Shown here in pieces: positions 16,367 through 19,590 of a stretch of 38,379 nt of DNA. The position numbers and the translations under genes were made by a program. The notes below the pieces were generated by a model, which searched no databases, was not told the DNA's origin, and worked only from the letters and a program-made list of their open reading frames with translations. The stretch lies in contig JAKEEW010000334.1 of the NCBI GenBank assembly GCA_022616375.1, positions 1-38,379 of the forward strand, given 5' to 3'. Every line of letters begins with the position of its first letter. Position 1 is the first letter of the stretch. Origin of the DNA: Sporichthyaceae bacterium (GTDB taxonomy: Bacteria; Actinomycetota; Actinomycetes; JAKEEW01).

Positions 16367-16582
16367 CTACTGGGCGTCCTCGAGCCGGAAGCCCACCTTC
16401 ATCCCCACCTGGACGTGGTCGATCTGACCGTCCACCAGATGGCCGCGGATCTCGGTCACCTCGAACCAGTCCATGTGCCGCAGGGTCTGGGCGGCCCGGC
16501 CCAGCCCGTTGCGGATCGCCGCATCGACACCCTCGGGCGAGGTACCCACGATCTCGGTGACCCGGTAAGTACGGTTGGCCAT
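16367..16582 (-). CDS. Dodecin family flavin-binding protein
   Basis: MANRTYRVTEIVGTSPEGVDAAIRNGLGRAAQTLRHMDWFEVTEIRGHLVDGQIDHVQVGMKVGFRLED, 71 aa, classic dodecin. Confidence 0.95.
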   Translation of the reverse strand: MANRTYRVTEIVGTSPEGVDAAIRNGLGRAAQTLRHMDWFEVTEIRGHLVDGQIDHVQVGMKVGFRLEDAQ

Positions 16583-16707: not shown

Positions 16708-17049
16708 ATGTCACGGAAGCAGTCCGGCCAGTCGGTGTACCCCATCACCGGGGCCCGCCGCGGGCTAACCGCCGACGTCGCACACCGGCAGACCCGTTAT
16801 GTGATCTCCATGGGGATCCGGACCGTCTGCTTCGTCCTGGCCGTCATCGTCCCGGGGCCGCTGCGCTGGGTGTTCCTGGCCGGTGCGTTCCTGCTCCCCT
16901 ATCTGTCCGTGGTGTACGCCAACGCCGGTCGCGAGCAACCGCCCGAGGCGCCGGCTCCCATCCCCGGCACCCGGCCTGAGCTACCGCCGGGAGCGGCCAC
17001 GATCGAGGGCGCGACGAGCCGGACGGTCCACGACAGACCGGGCGAATAA
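16708..17049 (+). CDS. DUF3099-like membrane protein
   Basis: YPITGARRGLTADVAHRQTRYVISMGIRTVCFVLAVIVPGPLRWVFLAGAFLLPYLSVVYANAGRE; two TM segments. Confidence 0.88.
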   Translation: MSRKQSGQSVYPITGARRGLTADVAHRQTRYVISMGIRTVCFVLAVIVPGPLRWVFLAGAFLLPYLSVVYANAGREQPPEAPAPIPGTRPELPPGAATIEGATSRTVHDRPGE

Positions 17050-17093
17050 GCGTGACGTGCCTCAGTCGGTGACACTCCGGTCGCGGCCACGGA

Positions 17094-17124
17094 TTGTGCT
17101 CGCGCCGAGACTCGGGTGTAATAC
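17094..17124 (+). promoter_or_regulatory. Candidate sigma70-type promoter for the 6C-like RNA (TTGTGC - 19 bp - TAATAC)
   Basis: -35-like TTGTGC 17094-17099, -10-like TAATAC 17119-17124; predicted TSS near 17131. Confidence 0.5.
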
Positions 17125-17130
17125 TGCGTT

Positions 17131-17219
17131 GTGCGCTCCGTATCCCCCGTCGGAGCGACAGACGCGATGCCGGGCGGCTTCCCCCGTGGCTGCCCGGCAT
17201 CGCCCATGTGTAGGCGCAC
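17131..17219 (+). ncRNA. 6C-like small RNA
   Basis: Hairpin 1 CGCTCCG-TATCCCCCGT-CGGAGCG (17134-17157); hairpin 2 CGATGCCGGGC-GGCTTCCCCCGTGGCT-GCCCGGCATCG (17165-17202). Both loops carry TCCCCCGT, as in the actinobacterial 6C RNA family. Confidence 0.72.
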
Positions 17220-17234
17220 GGTGGCTGAGCGCGT

Positions 17235-18263
17235 CTAGCCGCCGATCGCCGACATCGGCCGGGCCGGCTGGAGGAAGCCCGGATCATCGATTCCATGGCC
17301 GGGTTTCTTGGTCAACATCGCCGCTTCCCAGCGCCCGGCCAGCTCCTCGTCGGACGCGCCGGCCCGCATCGGCTCGCGAAGATCGGACTCCTCACGGGCG
17401 AACAAGCAGGTCCGGACCTGGCCGTCCGCGGTGATCCGGACCCGGTCGCAGCTGCCGCAGAACGGCCGGCTCACCGAGGCGATCACACCAACCCTGCCGG
17501 GCCCACCGTTGACCAGGAATGTCTCCGCCGGAGCACTGCCGCGCACCTGCTGGCCTTCCGGTTCGAGGTCGAACTCCTGCTCCAGCGCGGCGAAGATCTC
17601 GGCCGCGGTGACCATCGTGTCGCGGCGCCAGCCGTGCTGCGCGTCCAGCGGCATCTGCTCGATGAACCGCATTTGGTAGCCGCGCTCTAGACACCAGCGC
17701 AACAGCGCGGGCGCCTCGTCGGAGTTGATCCCGCGCATCAGCACCGCGTTGACCTTGACCGGGGTCAGCCCGGCCGCGGCAGCCGCTGCCAGCCCGTCGA
17801 TCACATCGTCCAGCCGGTCACGCCGGGCCAGCTCGATGAACCGGTCCCGGTCGAGGGTGTCCAGCGACACGTTGATCCGGTCCAGTCCGGCCTCCCGCAG
17901 CGCTACCGCGATCCTGGCCAGCCCGATCCCGTTGCTGGTCAGCGAGATCTGCGGGCGCGGTCGCAGCGCGGCCACCTGTTCGACGATGCCGACCAGGCCC
18001 TTGCGCACCAGCGGCTCGCCGCCGGTGAAGCGCACCTCGGTCACGCCCAGCCGCTGCACCGCGACCCGGACCAGCCGGACGATCTCCGCGTCGGTCAGCA
18101 GGGTCGGCGACGGCAACCAGTCCAGGCCCTCGGCGGGCATGCAGTAGGTGCACCGAAGATTGCACCGGTCGGTCAACGAGACCCGAAGATCAGTGGCGAG
18201 TCGGCCGTACGAGTCGACGAGCACCGAGCGGGCCTCCTTCTCCTCGACGCGATCAGGCAACAC
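17235..18263 (-). CDS. moaA: GTP 3',8-cyclase MoaA
   Basis: LRVSLTDRCNLRCTYCMPAEG (radical SAM CxxxCxxC), C-terminal FCGSCDRVRITADGQVRTCLFA and terminal GG. GTG start at 18263 is an estimate. Confidence 0.95.
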   Translation of the reverse strand: MLPDRVEEKEARSVLVDSYGRLATDLRVSLTDRCNLRCTYCMPAEGLDWLPSPTLLTDAEIVRLVRVAVQRLGVTEVRFTGGEPLVRKGLVGIVEQVAALRPRPQISLTSNGIGLARIAVALREAGLDRINVSLDTLDRDRFIELARRDRLDDVIDGLAAAAAAGLTPVKVNAVLMRGINSDEAPALLRWCLERGYQMRFIEQMPLDAQHGWRRDTMVTAAEIFAALEQEFDLEPEGQQVRGSAPAETFLVNGGPGRVGVIASVSRPFCGSCDRVRITADGQVRTCLFAREESDLREPMRAGASDEELAGRWEAAMLTKKPGHGIDDPGFLQPARPMSAIGG

Positions 18264-18306
18264 TACGCCGCAGGGGTGACCAGCGACGACAGTAGGTTGT
18301 CCGGCT

Positions 18307-19590
18307 ATGGACGTTGATCGGTTGCTCGAGCTGGACCGCGCCCATGTGTGGCATCCGTATGCCTCGGCCACCGGCGGGGTGCCGGTCTATCCGGTGCGGC
18401 GGGCCGACGGAGTACGGATCACGCTCGGCGACGGCCGGTTGGTGATCGACGGGATGGCGTCGTGGTGGGCCGCGATCCACGGCTACAACCACCCGGCGTT
18501 GAATGCGGCCGTCACCGCGCAGCTGGAGCGGATGGCACACGTGATGTTCGGCGGGCTGACTCACGAGCCCGGAGTGGCCCTGGCCGCCCTACTCGCCGAG
18601 ATCACCCCGGCCGGGCTGGACCGGGTGTTCCTGTGCGACTCCGGCTCGGTGTCGGTGGAGGTCGCGCTCAAGCTGGCCATCCAGTACTGGCAGGGCCGCG
18701 GCCGGCCGGCCAAGCAGCGGCTGCTGACCGTGCGCGGCGGGTATCACGGCGACACGTTCGGCGCGATGGCCGTGTGCGATCCGGTCAACGGGATGCACCA
18801 CCTGTTCACCGGGTCGCTGCCGGCGCAGCTGTTCGCCGAGCGGCCGCGCTGCCGCTACGGCGATCCGGTCGGCGACGCCGACTTGGCCGACCTCGCCGGG
18901 CTCCTTGCCGCGCACCGGGACGAGCTGGCCGCGGTCGTCATCGAGCCGGTCGTCCAGGGTGCCGGCGGCATGTACTTCTACGCGCCCGAATACCTCACCA
19001 GGCTGCGCGCGCTGTGCACCGAGCACGACGTGCTGCTGATCTTCGACGAGATCGCGACCGGGTTCGGCCGGACCGGGGAGCTGTTCGCCGCCGAGCACGC
19101 CGCGGTCGCTCCGGACATCATGTGCCTGGGTAAGGCCCTCACCGGCGGCTATCTGTCGATGGCCGCGACCCTGTGTACGGACGAGGTTGCCGACGGGGTG
19201 TGCGCGAGCGAGGCCAGGGTGTTCATGCACGGCCCGACGTTCATGGCCAATCCACTGGCCGCGGCGGTGGCCAGGGCCAGCGTCGAGCTGCTGCTGGCCG
19301 GACCTTGGCGGCAGCGCGTGGCTGCGATCGAGGCCGGGCTGCGGGCCGGGCTGGCGCCGGCTGCCGAGCTGACTGGGGTGGCCGACGTGCGGGTGCTCGG
19401 CGCGATCGGGGTCATCGAGACCAGGGCGCCGATCGACGTCGCCCGGGTGCAGGCCGTCGCACTCGAGCACGGGGTATGGCTGCGACCGTTCGGCCGGCTG
19501 CTGTACACGATGCCGCCCTACATCATCGGGGCCGACGAGCTGGCCGAGGTCACCGGTGCGATGGTGGCCGGCGCGGCGGTGGCACGATAG
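18307..19590 (+). CDS. bioA: Adenosylmethionine-8-amino-7-oxononanoate aminotransferase
   Basis: [80 protein letters not shown]. Confidence 0.95.

Follow-up and report, generated by a model that had tools for sequence, protein, structure and literature searches.

The DUF3099-moaA intergenic region

The DNA analysed here (the window, 38,379 nt) comes from a fragmented actinomycete genome of 4.64 Mb in 971 contigs (G000). The intergenic stretch that separates the DUF3099 gene from moaA holds two adjacent hairpins. The features of the locus are as follows:

16708-17049, + strand: DUF3099 gene (PF11298, E 1.3e-22), the constant upstream neighbour
17117-17125, + strand: extended -10 promoter element, TGT-AATACT, a motif conserved across related loci
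17130-17208, + strand: conserved core of the putative small RNA (model R1, 97.8 bits in a cmsearch of genome plus window; alignment A1)
17134-17157, + strand: hairpin 1, with a 7-bp stem (17134-17140/17151-17157) and the loop UAUCCCCCGU (17141-17150), from fold and covariation
17164-17203, + strand: hairpin 2, a probable terminator, with a 16-bp stem (17164-17179/17188-17203) and the loop UCCCCCGU (17180-17187), from fold and covariation
17235-18371, - strand: moaA (molybdenum cofactor biosynthesis; Radical_SAM and Mob_synth_C domains), the convergent downstream neighbour

The stop codon of moaA lies on the opposite strand only about 27 bases from the 3′ end of the RNA (window 17208-17235), so that read-through from moaA would be antisense to the entire RNA. 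Divergently upstream of DUF3099 there is a dodecin gene (16367-16579), which many relatives outside the streptomycetes have in the same place.

Conserved hairpins and promoter element

A preliminary description of this locus, made from the window alone, had proposed two adjacent C-loop hairpins. They are present at 17134-17203 on the + strand, each showing UCCCCCGU, and fold and covariation agree on them. The window has exactly two copies of the 8-mer TCCCCCGT, at 17143-17150 and at 17180-17187 on the + strand, which is no more than chance in such GC-rich DNA (2 seen vs. 2.55 expected); the case for a real feature thus rests on structure and comparison. The MFE of the segment 17125-17230 was -60.4 kcal/mol (z = -3.9 vs. 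shuffles). Hairpin 2 had been credited with a perfect 11-bp stem; the fold gives a longer one of 16 bp, including two G-U pairs. The count of five rather than six consecutive C residues was right for each loop of the window, while the Streptomyces copies have 5 C in loop 1 and 6 C in loop 2. A further helix, thought to close the RNA by pairing GTGCGC (17131-17136) with GCGCAC (17214-17219), is complementary as described, and the closed and open forms of the window RNA are nearly equal in energy (-52.0 vs. -52.4 kcal/mol). It does not stand as a conserved feature, however, being present in 4 of 148 distinct sequences where 3.4 were expected.

In alignment A1, made up of 22 distinct sequences, 99.2% of cells are paired in the two-hairpin structure and eight pairs show double-sided changes (23 cells), three among the seven pairs of hairpin 1 and five among the 16 of hairpin 2. 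None of 500 shuffled alignments matched the real one on any of five measures, and pairing fell to 32-54% when the partner was moved by 1-3 columns. RNAalifold returned the same two-hairpin structure unprompted. The aligned pairs include 55 G-U cells vs. 0 A-C cells, which identifies the plus strand as the strand of the structured RNA.

The loops are constant while the stems change from one distinct sequence to the next. Of 94 distinct sequences, 93 carry CCCCCGT in hairpin 2 and 88 carry CCCCCG(T/G) in the region of hairpin 1; the set consists mostly of streptomycetes owing to the way it was collected. In two loci (L023 and L026) there are three hairpins in a row, all with the loop CCCCCGT. 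Several others (L007-L011, L018, L021 and L022) keep hairpin 2 and have a hairpin 1 without this loop; the twin loops are therefore not essential everywhere.

The promoter had been described as TTGTGC-N19-TAATAC. Both sets of letters are there (TTGTGC at 17094-17099, TAATAC at 17119-17124), but only the second finds support in the comparison. No consensus sigma-70 site was found in the window and relatives outside Streptomyces have no conserved -35, arguing against TTGTGC in that role. The extended -10, on the other hand, is conserved outside Streptomyces as well as within it: anchored on the hairpins, TGN[ACT]AT[AG][ACT]T is present at 163 of 168 loci, against none of 168 control stretches taken 100 bases upstream (the consensus before the RNA can also be given as TGN(C/A)AT(A/G)(C/A)T). 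The distance from the -10 to hairpin 2 differs between loci by numbers not divisible by three, which speaks against a coding element. The proposal of a small RNA gene on the + strand with a promoter of its own is thus strongly supported by sequence comparison, through the extended -10, the covariation and the G-U asymmetry.

Given an extended -10 at 17117-17125, the 5′ end of the RNA is predicted near 17131-17133, the expected distance being 6-8 nt past TGACATACT. The 3′ end would probably be set by hairpin 2, at about 17204-17210. In 89 of 169 relatives, TTT or a short U-run lies no more than 8 bases past hairpin 2; no such run follows hairpin 2 in the window. In the streptomycete loci L032-L148, a conserved block resembling AAgCtcaagAAAAgCtCagAtcAATcatG..GTTCCggTGCc lies about 20-60 bases upstream of the -10; it was not seen in the window. 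This block may serve regulation, possibly as an activator site or an UP element.

Distribution, neighbours and relation to 6C

A nucleotide search of 60 relatives of the same class gave matches in 27 at E<=0.01, the clear ones ranging from E 1e-6 to 1e-22, and a pattern scan of the genome collection returned upwards of 100 stretches at least, among the matches listed, from genera that include Streptomyces, Kitasatospora, Streptacidiphilus, Actinacidiphila, Embleya and Jiangella. We built a covariance model for the new RNA (R1) and found it in 108 of 297 genomes of the class, in 37 of 105 genera and at one place per genome. Among 247 genomes drawn from the whole phylum, R1 was found only within this class. 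Many actinomycete families have close copies, which nearly always lie 3′ of DUF3099 and are usually opposite moaA.

For INDEPENDENCE from neighbours, 169 oriented loci were compared, part of the misses in the following counts being loci that are cut short. An upstream DUF3099 in the orientation of the RNA was detected in 163 and a convergent moaA downstream in 153. A small gene (MSDETPxCSAKGC...) lies between the RNA and moaA on the strand of the RNA in 151, mostly 20-130 nt from the RNA. Each neighbour can be missing where the RNA is kept: the small gene was not detected in the window or in L012, L014, L016, L020-L022 and L025, a nearby moaA was not detected in L017 and L020, and DUF3099 was not detected in L011, L018 and L026. 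The neighbours also occur without the RNA. DUF3099 is kept in 21 of 23 genomes that lack an RNA match, and the stretches downstream of DUF3099 in RNA-less genomes contained no such promoter, no R1 match above chance and no remnant. The small gene directly follows DUF3099, with no RNA between them, in L266, L275, L278 and L279. This independence in both directions indicates that the RNA is a separable gene and not a leader or terminator of its neighbours.

The same observations bear on two other explanations of the element. The first is that it is a bidirectional terminator serving DUF3099 and moaA, with hairpin 1 and the promoter-like motif incidental. Its location between convergent genes, the great stability of hairpin 2 and the TTT that follows it in about half of relatives would all fit a terminator. 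We nevertheless regard this as improbable: a conserved extended -10 lies between DUF3099 and the hairpins, the loop letters are constant although a terminator would not need this, hairpin 1 covaries independently, the pairing is strand-asymmetric, and element and genes are found without one another. The second, to which we give slightly more weight while still thinking it unlikely, is that in Streptomyces the RNA serves the small gene downstream of it as a 5′ leader or attenuator. The position and strand of that gene in most loci are consistent with this idea, but the RNA is intact in loci where the gene was not detected, the window among them, and the gene follows DUF3099 directly in four loci without the RNA. 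A secondary role as leader in Streptomyces may exist beside that of a separate RNA gene. The encoded protein (MSDETPxCSAKGCRxDAVWVLAWNNPKLHTPERRKTWLAC...; 20-130 bases past the RNA in L040 and further streptomycete loci) is conserved and a frequent neighbour of the RNA in Streptomyces, and has no match in Pfam or NCBIfam.

The window RNA had been called 6C-like, and a search with the 6C covariance model had been proposed as a check. The likeness holds for the architecture: 6C (RF01066; B11 in mycobacteria) is likewise an actinobacterial and probably trans-acting sRNA of about 75 nt, with two adjacent hairpins bearing C-rich loops, the second of which is terminator-like. It does not extend to membership of the family. 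RF01066 gave no match in the window at its gathering score (47 bits) or on 17000-17300 at E<=10, and none in the relatives' copies of the RNA. A genuine 6C, scoring 51.3 bits and thus above the cut-off, is located elsewhere in the same genome (G000:C481:7513-7588), beside the septum site-determining gene ssd, and R1 does not match this copy. By definition each 6C loop has six or more C (quoted in PMC8388888), whereas those of the window RNA are CCCCCGU, with five; its sequence and neighbours differ too, and it lies between DUF3099 and moaA and not next to ssd.

The two families also differ in part in their distribution. 6C was found in 143 genomes, out of the same number as in the R1 survey (297), and R1 and 6C lie at different places in all genomes compared by position (G000, G017, G056, G160 and G222). 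Family f4 has the strongest 6C matches, with no R1 among the f4 genomes listed. By sequence criteria, the window RNA is therefore a conserved actinomycete RNA family separate from 6C. That it could be a diverged copy or ortholog of 6C, as the shared two-hairpin architecture and similar length might suggest, is very improbable in view of the lack of a covariance-model match in either direction, the presence of both families at separate loci of the same genomes and their different neighbours.

No family of Rfam 15 matches the RNA at gathering, and the matches at lax thresholds are at chance level. Among these is Scr5676 (RF02832, Streptomyces RNA 5676), which shares a weak full-length alignment and a CCCC loop in a GC-rich hairpin with the window RNA and scores 13.4 bits (E 4.3), where gathering requires 56. 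Two further streptomycete RNAs described in PMC3765725, scr5583 and scr1434, have a stable hairpin with a C-rich loop and are conserved among streptomycetes. The scr numbers name the right flanking gene; as moaA of S. coelicolor is SCO1821 (PMC4021200), scr5583 and scr1434 would belong to other loci, a distinction that is drawn from gene numbering and not from sequence. The papers searched mention no sRNA next to SCO1821/moaA; the supplementary tables of RNA-seq surveys (e.g. PMC3765725) may hold an unnamed entry for the locus. C-loop sRNAs are thus a kind already known in actinobacteria, and this particular family is absent from Rfam 15. Few Streptomyces small RNAs have known functions. Present once per genome in 37 genera, with two seeds that hardly vary and no entry in Rfam, the new RNA makes a strong candidate for a core regulator at the post-transcriptional level. 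R1 would allow it to be annotated in thousands of genomes.

Proposed loop seeds and mode of action, with candidate targets

We consider the locus to be a stand-alone small RNA gene on the + strand, of a family separate from 6C and most likely acting in trans through its C-loops, with a probability of roughly 70%. C-rich-loop sRNAs that act in trans typically have a promoter of their own and conserved hairpins that present an invariant C-rich loop seed, and the window RNA has both, the former on the evidence of the extended -10 in 163 of 168 loci. An RNA of about 75-80 nt would be transcribed from this promoter and end at or just past the GC-rich hairpin 2, with each hairpin offering an unpaired CCCCCGU. 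Loops that stay single-stranded and unchanged while their stems vary are characteristic of a seed. The complement of CCCCCGU is ACGGGGG, which corresponds to Shine-Dalgarno regions rich in G; the loops would pair in trans with ACGGGGG(A) at ribosome-binding sites or close to them, blocking translation or triggering decay of the target. The two seeds (three in L023 and L026) would be interchangeable.

There is precedent for such a repressor in B11/6C, which acts through its C-loops on targets with a G-tract near the ribosome-binding site (PMC12395582, PMC10470900). In M. marinum, compensatory mutations support pairing of the C-rich terminator loop with G-tracts beside the ribosome-binding site (PMC12395582), and in M. 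abscessus either loop suffices (PMC10470900). Streptomyces have no Hfq (PMC11678152). By analogy, and given the constancy of the loops, the window RNA most likely works as 6C/B11 does, on G-rich ribosome-binding sites; complementarity of the loops is in itself weak evidence, as G-rich tracts are common in such genomes. The loops could instead form the site for a protein or RNA polymerase, with no mRNA seed involved. Their repetition, two or three times over, recalls protein-sponge RNAs, and the authors of PMC12395582 discuss a possible protein interaction of B11. With a seed that resembles an anti-Shine-Dalgarno sequence and a closest analogue that acts by base pairing, we attach little probability to this explanation.

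The clean separation of the RNA from 6C raises the question of whether each C-loop code has a regulon of its own. Target prediction among G-rich sites near ribosome-binding sites had been proposed in the preliminary description; an exact-match search gave no target shared between families. The pattern ACGGGGGA-N4-8-ATG or GTG yielded no convincing shared ortholog in four genomes of different families (for the GTG pattern in G017, the first 30 loci were covered). High identity across families was seen in one pair only (L204/L255), which resembles an antisense reading frame; L205/L241, with 35% identity, are two protein kinases of one Streptomyces genome. When two more Streptomyces genomes were added, two pairs within the genus appeared, one of Ser/Thr kinases (L241/L301) and one of SH3-domain proteins (L243/L295), which may reflect only conserved ribosome-binding sites. 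The pattern is more frequent than its reversed control, an excess that is not evidence of targeting because the pattern itself holds a Shine-Dalgarno-like tract before a start codon.

The window's genome has only five ACGGGGGA-N4-8-ATG sites, among which are those of ssd (TIGR03815) and of the FAD subunit of a molybdopterin dehydrogenase; these are candidates only. It is conceivable, though unlikely, that the RNA is a core actinomycete sRNA beside 6C, with a second C-loop code (CCCCCGU vs. a C6-9 seed) and its own regulon, which in this genome might include the candidates ssd and the molybdopterin-dehydrogenase subunit. If this were true, the two C-loop sRNAs would be linked in one network, 6C being next to ssd. 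In the same genome, 6C lies just upstream of ssd (L001:1501-1576 and L001:1685-1703, corresponding to G000:C481:7513-7715). The ribosome-binding site of ssd, one of the five, is ACGGGGGA and matches each loop of the window RNA as its exact complement.
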